From: Spirochaetia bacterium
GTDB taxonomy: Bacteria; Spirochaetota; Spirochaetia; DAHUYW01
Assembly: GCA_030041455.1 (NCBI GenBank)
Contig: JASHNV010000061.1
Span: 1 to 49,811 of the forward strand
DNA length: 49,811 nt
Reading direction: 5' to 3'
Part shown: positions 2,341-11,033 of the stretch, one piece after another
How positions within the stretch are numbered: position 1 is the first letter of the stretch
Layout: each line of letters opens with the position of its first letter
Program-made: the position numbers and the translations under genes
The notes under the pieces: model-generated
The model's database searches: none
The model's input: only the letters and a program-made list of their open reading frames with translations
What the model was told of the DNA's origin: nothing

Positions 2341-3417
2341 ATGAGCCGGTTGCCCGCGCGATGGGCAGGGCCCCTCGCCGCGCTCTTCCTCTCCTGTGCG
2401 AGCGCCTGCGGGGCCGAAGCGCTCTACCGCTCGAACCCGATCGGCATGGAGCTCGGCCCGCTCGGCGAGCGGCGCGCGGCTTCGACCGAGTGGGTCCTCG
2501 CCGTGCGCCACGAGGGCACGACGGAGATCAGGCTCCTCACCGATCGCGGCAAGGAGACCGAGCGCTGGGAGGACGAGTTCGACCACGGCGTTCTCCTCGC
2601 CGAGCGCGTCTATGAGGCCGGCGTCCTCACCGCCGAAAGCCGCTTCCGCAACGGCCGCCTCGCCGAGGAGCGGGATTACGCCGGCGGCAAGGAGGACTCC
2701 CGCGAGGAATACCGCTACGCCGGGGGAAATCTCTCCTCCGTCCTGGTCTTCACCGCCCGCGGCGCCCTCAAGTACCGGGAGCGCTACTACCGAGGCATGG
2801 ACGGAAGGCTCCGGGAGGTCGTCCGGGAGTACCCGGACGGCCGGATGAGCGAGTCGGAGTACACCTACGCGGACGGGCGTCTCGTCGACGAGTGGCATGG
2901 GAGCGACACGGCGGGGGAGCTCTATCGCTACGACGGCGCGCGGCTCGTCGCTCGGGAAGACTGGCGGGGAGCCAAGCTCGTCGACGAGCTCACCTACGAG
3001 CGCGCCGGGAAGGACAGCGTCGCGACCGAAACGGACCAGAGCGACGGCACGGTGACGACCAAGGAGTACGGCGCCGACGGGAATCTCGTGAGCGAGAAGA
3101 CGACGGCAGGCGGACGGGTGGTGGAGCGGTCCGACTACGCCTACCTCGACGGGCGGCTCGCCGACAAGGTGGTCTGGACGCCGGGCTCCCGGGACGAGAG
3201 CCGCTACGCCTACGGCGCCCACGGCGACCTCGCGAAGGTCGAGACCACCCACAACCGCACGCTCGCGAAGGTCACCGAGTACCAATCGCGCGAGAACTAC
3301 GTCGAGGTGATCTACTCAGGCGGGCAGCCGGTGCTCCGCGTCTACTACAAGAACGGCACGAAGCAGGCGGAGGTGCAGGTGCCGGCCGGAACGGACGCTT
3401 CGGAGGCGGCGCAATGA
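2341..3417 (+). CDS. exported YwqK/MORN-like repeat protein, putative lipoprotein
   Basis: 358 residues. The N-terminus is a signal peptide (basic start, then PLAALFLSCASACGAE); cleavage could be at ASA/C, which would make it a lipoprotein under the loose spirochaete lipobox, or by ordinary signal peptidase. The rest is a string of about ten short repeats of the form Y-x-x-G-x-L-x-x-E-x-x-Y (for example YTYADGRLVDEW and YGADGNLVSEK), as in YwqK/MORN-variant and YD-type beta-hairpin proteins. Function unknown. It sits between ftsY and lolC; its stop overlaps the lolC start (ATGA), so it is probably made together with the lipoprotein exporter, which suits a periplasmic or outer-membrane lipoprotein. 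Confidence 0.7.
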   Translation: MSRLPARWAGPLAALFLSCASACGAEALYRSNPIGMELGPLGERRAASTEWVLAVRHEGTTEIRLLTDRGKETERWEDEFDHGVLLAERVYEAGVLTAESRFRNGRLAEERDYAGGKEDSREEYRYAGGNLSSVLVFTARGALKYRERYYRGMDGRLREVVREYPDGRMSESEYTYADGRLVDEWHGSDTAGELYRYDGARLVAREDWRGAKLVDELTYERAGKDSVATETDQSDGTVTTKEYGADGNLVSEKTTAGGRVVERSDYAYLDGRLADKVVWTPGSRDESRYAYGAHGDLAKVETTHNRTLAKVTEYQSRENYVEVIYSGGQPVLRVYYKNGTKQAEVQVPAGTDASEAAQ

Positions 3418-4700
3418 AGGCCGCCTGGGTCCTCTACGTCGCGCGCCGGTACTTCCGCTCAAAGCGGCGGGAGCGCGGCCTCGCGCCGTCGACGCTCTCG
3501 GTGGCGGGAATCGCCGTGGGCGTTCTCGCGCTCATCTCGGTCCTCGCGGTCATGAACGGCTTTCAGCTCGGCTTCATCGAGGACATTCTCTCGATAAGCT
3601 CCTACCACCTGCGCGTCACGACCGGCGACGGGCCTCTCGGCGAGGCGGAGATCGAGCGCCTGAGGTCCCTCAAGGGCGTGACCGCGGTGGTCCCCTTCGC
3701 CGAGCTCCACACGATGATCGCGAGCTCGAGCTCCGAGCTCCAGGCGGCGCTCGTTCGGGGCCTGCCCGACGACGCCGCGCGCGTCGATCCCGATCTCCTC
3801 CGCCATCTCAACGTGATCCAGGGCTCGCTCGATCTCGGAGGAGGCCGTACCGTGGTCCTCGGCTCCGAGCTCGCCGAGAGCCTCTCGGTCGGCGTCGGCG
3901 ACACCGTCTCGCTCGTGTCGCTTTCAGGCGGCGCGCTCGCCGCCTTGCGACCCCGGGGGCTCCCCTTCACGGTGAGCGGGATCTTCAGGTCCGGGTACTA
4001 CGATTTCGACCAGTCCCTGTGCCTCGTCTCCCTCGCCTCCGCGCTCACCCTCGGCGCGGAGGCGGATCGCCTCACCTACGGGATCAAGCTCGCCGACCGC
4101 TTCGACGACCTTGCCGGGGCGCGCGCCGTCGCGCGGGCGCTCGCGCCCCGGAAGGTGTCGGTCGAGTCGTGGCGCCGCTACAACAGCGCGTTCTTCGGGG
4201 CGCTGCGGACCGAGAAGCTTACGATGTCCTTTCTCCTCAGCCTGATCTTCCTCGTCGTCGCCTCGAACATCTATCACCTGCTGCGCAGGGCCGTCTACGA
4301 GCGGCGCGAGGAGATCGGCGTCCTGCGCTCCCTCGGCGCCTCTCCCCGCTCGATGCGGGCGGTCTTCGTCTTCGACGGCCTCTACATCGGCGCGCTCGGC
4401 GCGACCGTCGGGCTCGTTCTCGGGCTTCTCGTCGCCGACCACATCAACGGCATCTTCGCGCTCGTCGAGCTCCTCGCGAGCCTCGCCACCGAGCTCTTCG
4501 ACACCCTTGTCCTCCACTCGGGCGTCTTTGTCGGGCTTTCCTCCGACGCCTTCTCCTTCGGGACCGTTCCGAGCCGCGTTCTCTTCGGCGAGACGCTCTT
4601 CATCTACCTCTTCGCGGTCTTCTCGGCGGTCGCCGCGGCGTACCTCGCCTCCGCCAAGGCGTCCGAGATCAAGCCCGCGGAGGTCCTGCGCTATGAGTGA
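3414..4700 (+). CDS. lolC: lipoprotein-releasing ABC transporter permease (LolC/LolE family)
   Basis: 428-residue FtsX-type permease. It has one membrane span near the N-terminus (VAGIAVGVLALISVLAVMN), a large periplasmic MacB-like domain, and three C-terminal spans (SFLLSLIFLVVASNIYHLL; GALGATVGLVLGLLVA; LFIYLFAVFSAVAAAYLAS). The start motif ARRYFRSKRR with later AVMNGFQ is typical of LolC/E. With LolD and the second permease it should extract outer-membrane lipoproteins from the inner membrane. The start is the ATG in ATGA at 3414 overlapping the previous stop; the long upstream extension of this frame is not coding. The 3' end overlaps lolD by 8 bases. Whether it is LolC or LolE cannot be settled from sequence alone. 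Confidence 0.9.
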   Translation: MKAAWVLYVARRYFRSKRRERGLAPSTLSVAGIAVGVLALISVLAVMNGFQLGFIEDILSISSYHLRVTTGDGPLGEAEIERLRSLKGVTAVVPFAELHTMIASSSSELQAALVRGLPDDAARVDPDLLRHLNVIQGSLDLGGGRTVVLGSELAESLSVGVGDTVSLVSLSGGALAALRPRGLPFTVSGIFRSGYYDFDQSLCLVSLASALTLGAEADRLTYGIKLADRFDDLAGARAVARALAPRKVSVESWRRYNSAFFGALRTEKLTMSFLLSLIFLVVASNIYHLLRRAVYERREEIGVLRSLGASPRSMRAVFVFDGLYIGALGATVGLVLGLLVADHINGIFALVELLASLATELFDTLVLHSGVFVGLSSDAFSFGTVPSRVLFGETLFIYLFAVFSAVAAAYLASAKASEIKPAEVLRYE

Positions 4701-5421
4701 CGGCGAGAAGCGGGCGGGCGCCGCCGCGGGGCGGACCGCCGGGCGCGAGGTGCTCAAGCTCGACCGCGTCGGCAAGAGCTACCTCACCGGCTCCGAGGAG
4801 CTGCGTGTGCTCGCGAACGTCTCGGTCGAGCTCGAGCGGGGCGCGATTCTCGCCATCACCGGCGAGAGCGGCTCCGGCAAGAGCACGCTGCTCAACCTCG
4901 TCGCGGGGCTCGACGCCCCGTCAAGCGGCGCGATCCTGTGCGGCGGGTACCGGGTCGAGCGCCTTTCGGAGCGGGAGCTCACGCGGTACCGAGCGAGGAC
5001 CATCGGGCTCGTTTTCCAGTTCCACTACCTCTTGAAGGACTTTACCGCCGCGGAGAACGTCATGATCCCCTCGTTCATGGCGGGCGCGCCGCGGCGGGAG
5101 GCGGCGGAGCGGGCGAGGGACCTTCTCGAGCGCGTCGGGCTCGCCGGGCGCGCCGATCACTATCCGCTGCAGCTCTCGGGGGGCGAGCGGCAGCGGGTGG
5201 CGGTCGCCCGCGCCCTCGTGAACGACCCGGAGATCGTGCTCGCCGACGAGCCGACGGGCAATCTCGACCAGCGCAACGCCAAGGTCGTCGAGGATCTCCT
5301 CTTTTCGCTCGTGAGGTCGCTTGGAAAGACGCTCCTCCTCGTGACGCACGATCCGGGGCTCGCCGAGCGCGCCGGTCGCGCGCTCCATCTCGAGCGCGGC
5401 GAGCTGGTCGCCGAGCGGTGA
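4693..5421 (+). CDS. lolD: lipoprotein-releasing ABC transporter ATPase LolD
   Basis: 242-residue ATPase of the MacB/LolD group. Walker A GESGSGKST, Q-loop region GLVFQFHYLLKDFTAAENV, signature LSGGERQRVAVARAL, Walker B VLADEPTGNLD and switch His in VTHD are all present. The Q-loop sequence FQFHYLL with AENV is the hallmark of LolD-like proteins. It powers the flanking FtsX-type permeases. ATG 4693 was chosen because it gives the standard length and overlaps the end of lolC by 8 bases. An N-terminal tail of about 20 residues rich in Ala, Gly and Arg precedes the fold. Confidence 0.92.
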   Translation: MSDGEKRAGAAAGRTAGREVLKLDRVGKSYLTGSEELRVLANVSVELERGAILAITGESGSGKSTLLNLVAGLDAPSSGAILCGGYRVERLSERELTRYRARTIGLVFQFHYLLKDFTAAENVMIPSFMAGAPRREAAERARDLLERVGLAGRADHYPLQLSGGERQRVAVARALVNDPEIVLADEPTGNLDQRNAKVVEDLLFSLVRSLGKTLLLVTHDPGLAERAGRALHLERGELVAER

Positions 5422-5464
5422 GGGAGCTCTTCTCCTCGGGGGCCCCCCGGACGGAGCCGACGAC

Positions 5465-6769
5465 GTGAAGGCGCGCTCGATCGCGTTCCTCGCGCTGCGC
5501 AACTTCTCGACCGCCGAGCGGGGACGCAGGCGCTGGGCGCTGAAGGGGGCGATCGCGGGCATCGCGCTCGCCCTCGTTCCGCTCGTGGTCGTGCTCGAGG
5601 TCGCAGACGGCATGATCCAGGGCATCACGAGCCGGTACGTGGAGATCGGAACGTTCCACTTCCAGGCGAGGCCCCTCCGCGCGGTCACGCCCCGGGAGCT
5701 CGACGCGGCGCTCGCGGAGGTCAAGCGGGTGCCGGGGGTGACCGAGGCGATCCCGGTCTCCTCGGGCCTCGCGCTCGCCTATTCGGCCGAGAGCAGAACC
5801 GGGGTGGCGGTGCGCGCGCTCCCCTCCGACCTCTACGCCAAGGACCCGGCCTTTCGCCGCTACCTGAGCTTCAGCGAGGGGGGCTACGACCTCTCGACGC
5901 CGCGCTCCGCGCTCGTAAGCGCGCAGGTGGCCGCCTCGCTCCACGTCGGAATCGGCGACCGGGTGGGCCTCCTCACCGCGAAGGTCTTCCCCGGCGGCCG
6001 GCTCATCCTGCGGCCCAACCAGCTCGTCGTGAAGGGCGTCTACTCCACCGGCTACAGCGAGCTCGACTCCCTCTCGGTCGTCGTCACCGAGGCCGAGGGC
6101 GCCTCGATCTTCACCGATCCCGGCTCGCGCTTCATCGGGATCAAGGTCCGGGACCCCTACGGCGACCTCCTGCCCCTGTCGACGGCCCTGAGGCTCGCGC
6201 TTCCGCCGGGATGGGAGCTCGCCTCGTGGTACGATCTCGAGCGGCCGATGTACGAGACCTTCGAGACGACGAGGAGCATGCTCCTTTTCATCATGGTCCT
6301 CATCGTGCTCGTCGCCTCGGTCAACATCTCGTCCTCGCTCGTCATGCTCGTCATCGAGCGGTCGGCCGAGATCGCGATTCTCAAGAGCACGGGGGCGAGC
6401 CCCGGCGGCATCACCTTGGCGTTCGTCGCGACCGGCTTCGTCGTCGGCGTCGTCGGCAGCGCGATCGGCATGGCCGCCGGGCTCCTCGTCGCGGTGAACA
6501 TCAACGGGGTCATCGCGGGGATCGAGCGGCTCATCAACGAGGGCATCGCGCTCTGGGACCTCGCGCTCTCGCCGTTCGTCTCGGTCACGCCGGTCCACGT
6601 CACGCTCCTGAGCTCCCAGTACTACCTCGAGACCATTCCGATCCGGCTCCGCTCGAGCGATCTCGCGACGATCGCCTTCCTCTCGATCCTCCTCGCCACC
6701 GCGGCGTCGTGGTTCCCGGCCCGGCGCGCGGGCGCCGTTCGCCCCCTCGAGATCCTCCGCAAGTACTGA
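5465..6769 (+). CDS. lolE: second lipoprotein-releasing permease (LolE/LolC family)
   Basis: 434-residue FtsX-type permease, the probable partner of the lolC product. It has an N-terminal span (GAIAGIALALVPLVVVLEV), a periplasmic domain, and C-terminal spans (LLFIMVLIVLVASVNISSSLV; GFVVGVVGSAIGMAAGLLVAV; LATIAFLSILLATAASWFP). The ending ARRAGAVRPLEILRKY is the usual FtsX-family tail. It starts at GTG 5465, 43 bases after lolD, with a GGAG element about 8 bases upstream. Two different permeases around one ATPase is the LolCDE layout of didermic bacteria. Confidence 0.88.
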   Translation: MKARSIAFLALRNFSTAERGRRRWALKGAIAGIALALVPLVVVLEVADGMIQGITSRYVEIGTFHFQARPLRAVTPRELDAALAEVKRVPGVTEAIPVSSGLALAYSAESRTGVAVRALPSDLYAKDPAFRRYLSFSEGGYDLSTPRSALVSAQVAASLHVGIGDRVGLLTAKVFPGGRLILRPNQLVVKGVYSTGYSELDSLSVVVTEAEGASIFTDPGSRFIGIKVRDPYGDLLPLSTALRLALPPGWELASWYDLERPMYETFETTRSMLLFIMVLIVLVASVNISSSLVMLVIERSAEIAILKSTGASPGGITLAFVATGFVVGVVGSAIGMAAGLLVAVNINGVIAGIERLINEGIALWDLALSPFVSVTPVHVTLLSSQYYLETIPIRLRSSDLATIAFLSILLATAASWFPARRAGAVRPLEILRKY

Positions 6770-6928: not shown

Positions 6929-7450
6929 ATGAAAGAGACGAAATGCGAGATCTGCGGCGAGAAGACGTCGACGGTCCACGTCCAGCAGGTCATGGGCAAC
7001 GAGATCATCGAGCTCAATCTCTGCGACGCCTGCGCCCAGAAGAAGGGCATCTCGAGCAACGACGACAAGATCGAGCTCTCGCTCTCCCAGCTCCTCACCG
7101 GCCTCATCGATCTGAAGGCCGACGCGGGGGAGGAGAAATCGAGCGAGAGCTGCCCGCGCTGCGGCCAGAAGCTTTCGGAGTTCAGGAAGGAGGGCAGGCT
7201 CGGCTGCGCCGAGTGCTACGTCGCCTTCAAGCGCGAGATCGAGCTTTTCCTCGAGAACACGGTCGGGACGAACCGCCATCGCGGGAAATATCCGAGGAGG
7301 CTCCTCGCCTACAAGTCGCTCCTCACCGACCGGGAGCGGCTGCAGGGGAAGCTGAAGGAGGCGATCACCCGCGAGGACTACGAGGAGGCGGCCGAGCTCC
7401 GCGACGAGATCAGGACGATCGAGCGAACGGCCGGGGAGCACCATGATTAG
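6929..7450 (+). CDS. mcsA: McsA, zinc-binding UVR-motif partner of McsB
   Basis: 173 residues. Four CxxC pairs (C6/C9 CEIC, C32/C35 CDAC, then CPRC and CAEC) should bind two zinc ions, and a C-terminal UVR motif follows (REDYEEAAELRDEIRTIE). In Firmicutes McsA activates the arginine kinase McsB and helps ClpC. ATG 6929 was chosen because it sits after GAGGGA and begins with the expected KCEICGEK; the longer upstream frame is not credible. The stop overlaps the mcsB start by 8 bases, so the pair is coupled. Confidence 0.93.
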   Translation: MKETKCEICGEKTSTVHVQQVMGNEIIELNLCDACAQKKGISSNDDKIELSLSQLLTGLIDLKADAGEEKSSESCPRCGQKLSEFRKEGRLGCAECYVAFKREIELFLENTVGTNRHRGKYPRRLLAYKSLLTDRERLQGKLKEAITREDYEEAAELRDEIRTIERTAGEHHD

Positions 7451-8498
7451 GTTCACCGGGGTGAGGGAGACCCCCGGCTGGTTCCAGGAGGCGGGGCCGG
7501 AAAACGACGTCGTCATCGCGAGCAGGGTGCGCCTGTCGCGCAACCTCGCGGGCTACCCGTATCCGGGAACGATGAAGAGCGAGGAGGAGGCGGCGGTCCA
7601 GCGGGAGATCCTCGACGCCTTCGCGAAGGTCGGCGGCGATTGCAAGGCGGCGCTCCTCGGCAGCTTCACGCCCTCGGAGCGGCGGCTTCTCCTCGAGCGG
7701 AACCTCATCTCGCAGGATTTCTCCCTGAGCGCCCAGAAGGCGGTCATCCTGCGGGACGACCAGAAGCTGAGCGGCATGATCAACGAGATCGATCACCTTC
7801 GCACCGCGAGCTTCTCCGGAGGCTTGAATCTCAGGCGCTCCCACGAGGAGGTGAACGCCCTCGACAGCGAGCTTGAGAACCGGCTGGAATTTGCGGCTTC
7901 GCTTGAAATGGGCTATCTTTCAACGGAGCTCGCGAACAGCGGCACGGGCATGCGCGCCTCGATCATGCTCCACATGCCGGCGCTCGTGACCACGTCGCTC
8001 ATCGAGCGGACCTTCAAGGCGGTCGTTCAGCTCGGGCTCTCGGTGAAGGGCTTTTTCGGCGACGACGAGCACTCGCTCGGCAGCATGTATCAGGTGTCGA
8101 ACCAGTTCGGGCTCGGATCGAGCGAGAGCGAAATTCTCGACAAGCTTGAAAGTGTAGCCGCTCAGATAGTAAACTATGAGCGGAAAGCCCGGGAGGAAAT
8201 GGTTGCGAAGCAGCGGGTGGATATCGAGGACAGGGTTTACCGGGCGCTCGGCATTCTCAAGTATTGCCGGTCGATCTCGGTTCGCGAGGCGATCGAGCAC
8301 CTTTCGCAGTTGCGGCTGGGTGCCGCGCTCGGCTGGATCAAGCTGCCGTTGGAGAGGCTGACCGCGCTGCTGTTTCTCACCCAGAAATCGCACGTTCAGC
8401 AGCTGATCGACAGCCAGGAGACCGGGGCGGACACCAAGTTGATCGATTATACGCGGGCGCTTATGATCAAAGAGGCGCTCGGCGACGCGGACCTTTAA
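7443..8498 (+). CDS. mcsB: McsB-like guanidino kinase homologue, catalytic residues altered
   Basis: 351 residues, full length and in frame with the McsB family (VVIASRVRLSRNL at 23-35, LISQDF, GTGMRAS, ISNQ-like QVSNQFGLG, LEDRVYRALGIL). Active McsB phosphorylates arginines on proteins and so marks them for ClpCP. Here the NEEDH motif is NEIDH (114-118), putting Ile at the usual catalytic Glu. The SCPTN loop around B. subtilis Cys167 is STELAN, with Glu162 in place of Cys. The VRG of the nucleotide site is VKG (Lys202). Arg120 and Arg171 are kept. The protein may be a pseudokinase or adaptor, or use other residues. It lies between mcsA and clpC (12-bp gap). Confidence 0.88.
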   Translation: MIRFTGVRETPGWFQEAGPENDVVIASRVRLSRNLAGYPYPGTMKSEEEAAVQREILDAFAKVGGDCKAALLGSFTPSERRLLLERNLISQDFSLSAQKAVILRDDQKLSGMINEIDHLRTASFSGGLNLRRSHEEVNALDSELENRLEFAASLEMGYLSTELANSGTGMRASIMLHMPALVTTSLIERTFKAVVQLGLSVKGFFGDDEHSLGSMYQVSNQFGLGSSESEILDKLESVAAQIVNYERKAREEMVAKQRVDIEDRVYRALGILKYCRSISVREAIEHLSQLRLGAALGWIKLPLERLTALLFLTQKSHVQQLIDSQETGADTKLIDYTRALMIKEALGDADL

Positions 8499-8510: not shown

Positions 8511-11033
8511 ATGTTCAAGGGGCTTACGCAGAGAGCTCAAAGAATACTCACCATATTCGCGCAGGAAGAGGCGAAGCGATTCCACTCCGACCAGCTTCTT
8601 CCGGAGCACATCATTCTTGCTCTCCTGAAAGACGGGGAAGGTCTCGGCTACAAGGCGCTCAAGCGGCTGAACGTCGATCCGAGCGAAATGCAGACCGAGA
8701 TCGAGCGGAGCATTCCCAAGAAGCATTCGGGCTTCATCCTCGGCGACGTGCCTCCCTCCAAGCGCGGGAAGAAGATCCTCGAGGACTCCGCCGAGGAGGC
8801 GCGCAACCTCGGCCACGAGTACATCGGCACCGAGCACCTCCTGCTCGCCTCGGCGAAGGAGACCGGCAGCGTCGTGCAGCGCTGTCTCGCGAAGTACAAC
8901 GTCTCCGTCGAGCAGCTTCGGGAGATCGTCATCGATCTGAGCGGCTCGGCGGGCTACGCGAAGCGGATGCCTCCCCAGCTTCAGTCCCAGTCGTCGCCGC
9001 AGTCCCAGGCGCAGAAGCGCAAGCAGCCGCTTCCCGGCAAGAAGGCGACGCCGACCCTCGACGAGTTCTCGCGCGACCTCACCGAGTACGCGAGGGAGGG
9101 GAAGCTCGACCCGGTCATCGGACGGGCGAAGGAGATCCAGCGGGTCATCCAGATCCTCGCTCGGCGCACGAAGAACAACCCGGTTCTCATCGGAGAGCCC
9201 GGAGTCGGAAAGACCGCGATCGTCGAGGGCCTTGCCCAGCGGATCGTCGACGGCACGGCGCCTGAGGTCCTCATGGGCAAGCGGGTCATGACGCTCGACC
9301 TCGCCTCGCTCATCGCCGGGACGAAGTACCGCGGCGAGTTCGAGGAGCGGCTGAAGCGCGTCATGAAGGAGATCGTGAACGCGGGCAACATCGTGCTCTT
9401 CATCGACGAGCTCCACACGATTATCGGCGCAGGCGGCGCCGAGGGCGCGATCGACGCTTCGAACATGCTCAAGCCCGCCCTCTCGCGCGGGGAGCTCCAG
9501 TGCATCGGCGCGACCACGCTCAACGAGTACAAGAAGTACATCGAGAAGGACACGGCGCTCGAGCGCAGGTTCCAGTCGATCTTCGTGAGCGAGCCGTCGG
9601 TCGAGGAGACCATGGAGATCCTGAAAGGGGTGAAGACCCAGTACGAGGACCACCACAACGTCACCTACACCGACGAGGCGCTCGAGACCGCGGCGGTCCT
9701 TTCGAGCCGCTACATCACCGAGCGCTTCCTTCCCGACAAGGCGATCGATCTCATCGACGAGGCCGGCTCCCACAAGCGGATCACGAACAGCGTGCGGCCG
9801 AAGGAGCTCGCGAAGCTCGAGATGGAGATCGAGAGGCTCACGAACGAGAAGATGGCGCTCGTGACCTCGCAGAACTACGAGAAGGCGGCGGCGGTGAGGG
9901 ACACCGTTCGCCAGCTCAAAGCGAAGGTCGAGGACATGAAGCGCGGCTGGGAAGACACGCTGAAGGTCGAGAAGAACGTCGTCGACGAGGAGGACATCCA
10001 GGAGATCATCTCCAACATCACCGGCATTCCGCTCATCAGGATAGCGCAGACGGAGTCCGACAAGCTGCTCCACGTCGAGGACGAGCTCCACCACAAGGTC
10101 ATCGGGCAGGACGAGGCGATCGGCGCGGTCGCCTCCGCGATCAGGCGCGCGCGCACCGGCTTGAGCTCCCCGAGGCGGCCGATGGGCTCGTTCATTTTCC
10201 TCGGGCCCACCGGAGTCGGAAAGACGCTCCTCGCGAAGAGCCTCGCCGAGTTTCTGTTCGGCGACCAGGAGGCGCTCATCCGCATCGACATGTCCGACTA
10301 CATGGAGAAGCACAACGTCTCGAGGCTCGTCGGCGCGCCCCCGGGCTACATCGGCTACGAGGAGGGGGGCTTCCTCACCGAGAAGATCAGGCGGCGGCCG
10401 TACAGCGTAATCCTGCTCGACGAGATCGAGAAGGCCCATCCGGACGTCTTCAACCTTCTCCTCCAGGTCCTCGAGGAGGGGGAGCTTCAGGACAACTTCG
10501 GCCACCGCGTCTCCTTCCGGAACACGGTCCTCATCATGACCTCGAACGTCGGCGCGCGCGAGATCTCCCGCGACAGCGCGCTCGGCTTTCGCGCCGAGGA
10601 CAATCTCATGAGCTTCAACGAGATCAAAAGCTCGGCGATGGCGGAGCTCAAGCGCGATTTCAGGCCGGAGTTCCTGAACAGGGTCGACGAGATCGTGGTG
10701 TTCCACAGCCTCACGCGCGAGGACGTGCGGAGAATCCTCGACCTCATGCTCACGGAGGTCCAGATGCGCCTGCTCGACAACGACATCCTCATCGACGTGA
10801 AGCAGAAGGCGAAGGACCTGCTCATCGACAAGGGCTTCGACACGAAGTACGGCGCGCGCCCGCTCCGCAGGGTGATCCAGAAGCAGCTCGAGGATCGCCT
10901 GTCGCTTGAGGTCCTGAAGGGGAAGGTGCAGCCGGGCCACCGGGTGATCGTCACGGTCAAGAAGGACGAGATCGTTTTTCTTTCCAAAAACCCCCAGAAG
11001 AGCCTGCCGGCCCCGGCCGGCGTCGCCGGATAG
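8511..11033 (+). CDS. clpC: ATP-dependent Clp protease ATPase subunit ClpC
   Basis: 840 residues: a double Clp-N domain (1-145), a linker rich in Gln and Ser, AAA1 (Walker [10 protein letters not shown], Walker B LFIDEL), a middle region with a UVR motif ([16 protein letters not shown]), and AAA2 ([18 protein letters not shown]). The LGF in SALGFRAED matches the ClpP-docking loop, so it should unfold substrates for ClpP (not in the window). Glu32 and Glu108 sit where B. subtilis ClpC has the phospho-arginine-binding Glu32 and Glu106. Strong Shine-Dalgarno GGAGGAAGAGA directly before ATG 8511. Cotranscribed with mcsA and mcsB. Confidence 0.97.

Follow-up and report, generated by a model that had tools for sequence, protein, structure and literature searches.

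A predicted arginine pseudokinase homologous to McsB is encoded between mcsA and clpC in a class of spirochaetes

The McsB homologue encoded between mcsA and clpC in a genome of the Spirochaetia (assembly GCA_030041455.1) is probably (at about 0.68) an arginine pseudokinase that has been retained to act together with McsA as an adaptor or regulator of ClpC. Its gene lies at coordinates 7443–8498 and is transcribed rightwards in the window, which is the whole 49,811 bp stretch of contig JASHNV010000061.1 that was analysed. The 351-residue product is predicted to lack arginine kinase activity and may still bind ATP; binding to ClpC, or an adaptor role there, is putative and is suggested by the linkage of the genes.

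The product is by sequence a homologue of McsB. It contains the ATP:guanido phosphotransferase domain PF00217 (161.3 bits; cut-off 22.4) and the C-terminal McsB dimerisation domain, and matches solved McsB chains over residues 12–323 (8wtb, E = 1.2e-66; 6tv6, 1.3e-66; 6fh1, 1.4e-62). The homology to the McsB proteins of B. subtilis, G. stearothermophilus, and S. aureus is full-length, with 31–36% identity to Firmicutes McsB. However, the scores fall below the NCBIfam McsB equivalog cut-offs (NF002194, 324.5 against 385; NF053707, 283.9 against 500; others likewise), and because of this and of the changes in its active-site residues the product should not be filed as a protein-arginine kinase. 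It is the only guanidino-kinase gene detected in the whole genome, and no second, intact McsB copy was seen there; absences from the PF00217 and CtsR genome searches are not absolute, since the B. subtilis control gave no match in either although the species has both mcsB and ctsR. A scan of genome contigs with the window protein as single query matched the same-genus locus only.

Four active-site residues differ from those of B. subtilis McsB (reference sequence L105, NZ_AP028965.1). The two numberings stay 5 apart across the kinase motifs, such that E121, the catalytic Glu of the NEED motif, C167, R207, and the lid Glu E212 correspond to I116 (codon 7788–7790), E162 (7926–7928), K202 (8046–8048), and D207 (8061–8063), all on the forward strand; NEED is changed to NEID, SCPTN to TELAN, and VRGIYGE to VKGFFGD. 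A further change, R337 to I334 (8442–8444, forward strand), turns the RDxxRA motif of the phospho-arginine (pArg) receptor into IDxxRA, but this is weak evidence because Firmicutes also vary at that position (Arg in 4/7), and it was rejected as a diagnostic. The first-pass annotation had described the Ile, Glu, and Lys at positions 121, 167, and 207, and both the PDB matches and the alignment bear it out; the observation holds and reaches further than noted, with the lid Glu and R337 changes added to it. That annotation had also held that neither misalignment nor a frameshift produces these differences, and both were rejected here: the reading frame is intact, the alignment is ungapped around the kinase motifs, and the flanking residues N114, E115, D117, H118, R120, N165, G167, T168, G169, R171, and G203 are McsB-like. 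Residues R28, R30, R33, D335, and R338 are retained as well. Sequencing error was rejected as a cause because a same-genus genome (L010/L038), 80% identical, shares the substitutions (NEIDH, TTEIAN, VKG, and GDD) and because the catalytic loss is class-wide. An AlphaFold model built from two sequences was uninformative (mean pLDDT 36).

It speaks against a loss of activity that both catalytic Glu residues of animal arginine kinase are reportedly accessory, with residual activity left when either is mutated singly. When arginines of B. subtilis McsB were changed to Lys, the R29K, R31K, R34K, R125K, R176K, R207K, and R337K proteins were inactive, and R86K, R255K, R272K, R281K, and R341K were weakly active and unresponsive to McsA (PMC7235348). 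In vitro, R207K leaves the B. subtilis enzyme without activity, and the C167S variant is also dead as a kinase (PMC7235348). The window McsB naturally carries the inactivating R207K change in the form of K202, and keeps the other five of the six kinase-essential arginines R29, R31, R34, R125, R176, and R207; the McsA-response arginines R86, R255, R272, R281, and R341 are all Arg. Counted over nine kinase-critical positions, it retains five, with nine of nine in the Firmicutes references (n = 7, same alignment) and zero to six in class members.

It is unlikely that the protein is still an arginine kinase working by a changed mechanism, with Glu115, Asp207, and Glu162 in the place of Glu121, Glu212, and Cys167, and Lys202 in that of Arg207. 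Such an enzyme could draw on the ATP-phosphate arginines R28, R30, R120, and R171, which are present together with Asp207 and Glu115, and the site could have been rebuilt, as position 167 is acidic in 14 of 18 near relatives and position 207 is Lys in 17. However, either of the B. subtilis substitutions R207K and C167S inactivates alone, position 121 is occupied by I, V, T, Q, M, or K in near relatives with no single conserved replacement, and the class yielded no YwlE-type P-loop. A salt bridge between an acidic residue 167 and Lys207 was considered and rejected, as the Fisher test gave no significant association between the two (p = 0.25 overall and 0.05 within the class). The first-pass annotation had offered a changed mechanism, or phosphorylation of another residue, as its alternative, and this gained no positive support.

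The substitutions extend well beyond one genome. The McsB set comprises 90 sequences from the same class, 72 from other classes of the phylum, and seven Firmicutes references. Within the class, Cys167 occurs in 0/90, Glu121 in 13, Glu212 in 5, and Glu121 and Cys167 together in none; position 207 is Arg or Lys in 38/90 and position 31 is Arg in 66/90. All seven Firmicutes references keep Glu121, Cys167, and Glu212. Glu121 and Cys167 are both kept in 23/72 sequences of the other classes, and just two McsB proteins there keep all four active-site residues (L039 in genome G070, and the near-canonical L219 in genome G232). The loss of catalytic residues is evidently a lineage trait of this spirochaete class, and the alignment of spirochaete McsB to the B. 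subtilis protein that had been proposed as a check thus confirms the loss and widens it.

A quick tree built without the trait columns, which has many unresolved forks, clusters the class sequences strongly, although not as one clean clade. On it the class label requires two changes, C167 seven, E121 eleven, and E212 ten, so that the catalytic residues changed more than once across the phylum. One locus (L037, genome G027) has a 567-residue open frame upstream of clpC with a very weak and extremely degenerate McsB-like domain; this may be an in-frame mcsA-mcsB fusion or simply an open frame that runs upstream. Separately, locus L112 (NZ_CP110821.1), a plasmid of Candidatus Bandiella woodruffii, a Rickettsiales endosymbiont of a ciliate, encodes at coordinates 2641–3738 a McsB homologue that is annotated as hypothetical and whose NEEDH, SCPTN, and RGTYGE motifs are canonical; transposases are nearby, and no mcsA or clpC was seen adjoining the gene.

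The 18 near relatives show which parts of the protein are constrained. R29, R31, D122, H123, N170, G172, and R341 are invariant, and columns 121, 167, and 212 are as variable as the average column or more so; the constraint lost is therefore that on guanidinium binding and catalysis, and not that on the fold or the nucleotide side. Comparison with the same-genus relative gives dN of 0.13 and dS of 0.96 (dN/dS about 0.14), which indicates purifying selection on McsB. Loss of catalytic residues with a fold and other residues held under purifying selection is the sequence pattern of a pseudokinase, and it is found here.

A decaying relic, without present function and carried between mcsA and clpC by its position in the operon, is a very improbable explanation. 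The catalytic residues do drift, sequence divergence is strong in many lineages, and many genomes of the phylum have no detectable McsB (a match is present in 187/296). Against this stand the low dN/dS, uninterrupted open frames in almost every McsB match, the conservation across the class of R341 (90/90), R34 (87/90), and R255 (83/90), and the retained zinc Cys residues of McsA.

Some protein pseudokinases have repurposed pockets, with other transfer chemistry or another target residue. A pocket of this kind, which would bind nucleotide and either transfer something else or phosphorylate a different residue, might be read from the strong constraint on the nucleotide-side arginines and from the near-invariant Lys207 and mostly acidic position 167 of near relatives. 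It is nonetheless quite improbable here, as the ATP-site residues also decay in distant class members (see the counts at positions 207 and 31 above), and there is for this reason no single new catalytic set common to the class.

The predicted pseudokinase is encoded in a conserved setting, with linked mcsA and clpC genes transcribed in the same direction. The mcsA homologue (6929–7450, forward strand) overlaps mcsB by 8 nt, and its product scores 119.7 bits against NCBIfam McsA, below the cut-off of 210, and has all eight zinc-finger Cys residues and a UVR motif. Among relatives, the Cys residues of the second finger are retained in 50/50 and those of the first in 48/50. The role described for the zinc finger of S. 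aureus McsA is to orient the catalytic Cys of McsB (PMC12467219), and the window system differs in that the finger is kept although McsB has no catalytic Cys. Downstream, clpC (8511–11033, forward strand) encodes an 840-residue unfoldase with an N-domain, AAA+ domains, a UVR/M-domain, and an LGF loop; the genome also has two genes of the ClpP family. The order mcsA-mcsB-clpC is retained in the class loci examined. Directly upstream of mcsA and on the same strand are genes for an ABC ATPase between two FtsX-type permeases (LolCDE-like; 3342–6769), in the position where Firmicutes have ctsR. Further left is a 358-codon frame (2341–3417) with a tyrosine/glycine-rich, repeat-like sequence and no Pfam match.

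The first-pass annotation had pointed to Glu32, a second-site Glu, and the LGF loop in ClpC, and these are present; its argument that they represent an intact pArg reader is weak. Nearly all loci have conserved Glu32 and Glu106, with intact and altered McsB alike, and the pockets that these residues form also help to maintain the ClpC resting state (PMC12583610), so that the conservation of the two residues does not imply pArg reading and was rejected as proof of it. In genus g12 of family f12 (L021, L022, L028, and L186), the ClpC frame starts at the first AAA+ domain and has no N-domain, with McsB adjoining; McsA is upstream of McsB in the three loci checked, and a related genus (L066) keeps the ClpC N-domain. 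The pArg reader is thus missing entirely from this sister genus, with McsA and McsB retained. R254, which is mutated in a non-activatable B. subtilis ClpC, is conserved, in a segment of generally conserved AAA+ sequence.

Evidence of a pArg eraser was sought among the low-molecular-weight phosphatases (LMW-PTPs). The Thr of the CTGNTCRS P-loop is presumably the residue that makes YwlE selective. In the class, each LMW-PTP P-loop that was read is either C.GN[IV]CRSP (phosphotyrosine type) or CTGNSCRSQ (ArsC-like, of the arsenate-reductase type), and none is a YwlE-like CTGNTCRSP. A single residue confers the phosphoarginine selectivity of YwlE, according to work cited in PMC5506225. The LMW-PTP of the window's own genome (L127) has CTGNICRS, with two weaker LMW-PTP matches besides, and the pattern C.GNTCR.P has no match in that genome. 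A motif scan of 296 genomes of the phylum found one genuine YwlE-type P-loop, in G070, the genome in which McsB (L039) is fully canonical. This genome of another class (L039, L167/L173) has an apparently intact pArg writer and eraser pair, the P-loop being CTGNTCRSPMAE. Genome G232 (L219; 81% complete) has the near-canonical McsB and no match to the YwlE pattern, and with that and a single positive case the co-occurrence of YwlE and McsB is suggestive only. Pattern matches in family f19 and in G311 were rejected, as they read CNGNTCRRP or CSGNTCRRP and not CTGNTCRS, and the two in f19 whose frames were read are 80-residue chance frames. There is no ctsR gene in the operon, and none was found in 41 genomes, in a search that likewise gave no CtsR match in the B. 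subtilis control.

These observations also bear on whether another, unrelated kinase makes pArg, with the dead McsB still serving as a scaffold for its recognition by ClpC. Mycobacterium smegmatis has both pArg and a pArg-binding ClpC1 with no known McsB homologue (PMC9604228), and Glu32 and Glu106 of ClpC are conserved here. However, no YwlE-type eraser P-loop was found, and the conservation of the two Glu residues is explicable by the resting state, which leaves this possibility very improbable.

The reading of this McsB as a pseudokinase or a ClpC adaptor was put forward in the first-pass annotation and is well supported by the class-wide loss, the inactivating effect of R207K and of C167S taken singly, the purifying selection, and the McsA and ClpC neighbours. 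This spirochaete class has lost Glu121, Cys167, and Glu212, which grip the guanidinium of the substrate and activate it, and has lost Arg207 as well; near relatives retain the fold, most of the ATP-phosphate-binding arginines, and the McsA-responsive residues. In the mechanism proposed, McsA would dock on McsB, which would work without phosphotransfer, and the pair may bind clients, ClpC, or both, and so regulate delivery to ClpCP or its activation. In this role McsB would be analogous to the ClpC adaptor MecA, which brings clients to ClpC and relieves its resting state without phosphorylation; the likeness is to the proposed role, and no sequence relation is claimed.

A kinase-free role is plausible because kinase-dead B. 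subtilis McsB C167S retains a partial, kinase-independent adaptor function for MgsR, whose half-life is 12.3 min in this mutant against 17.7 min in the deletion (PMC7235348). The window protein resembles this laboratory mutant in having no Cys167, but differs from its one engineered change in having four active-site changes and a Cys167 loss that is class-wide. Stimulation of ClpC by McsB in B. subtilis is reported to need kinase activity (PMC5506225), and a kinase-free adaptor must therefore differ from this best-studied case. Compared with Firmicutes McsB as a whole, the gene order, the ATP-side and McsA-response arginines, and D338 and R341 of the pArg receptor are alike, whereas the window protein has E121I, C167E, R207K, E212D, and R337I in a system with no CtsR gene and no YwlE-type phosphatase found. 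It shares with the bacterial Ser/Thr and eukaryotic pseudokinases a conserved fold under selection and the loss of catalytic residues, although the guanidino-kinase fold is unrelated to theirs. The open-licence PMC literature gave nothing relevant on McsB in spirochaetes or on McsB as a pseudokinase, and no naturally occurring pseudokinase of the guanidino-kinase fold was found in it.

A McsB homologue tends to be called an arginine kinase, and the co-occurrence of mcsB and clpC to be read as presence of the pArg-ClpCP pathway; the predicted loss of activity here is a warning against naming these genes protein-arginine kinase from homology. It is conceivable, if rather doubtful, that a non-phosphorylating McsA-McsB pair runs ClpC quality control throughout the class, that the former kinase pocket binds regulatory ATP or carries a new ATP-dependent chemistry, and that a pArg degron system has become a pure adaptor system. 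In B. subtilis it is difficult to tell what McsB does as a kinase from what it does as an adaptor; the apparent loss of catalysis across an entire class of spirochaetes, with the operon kept, would constitute a natural experiment that separates the two roles.
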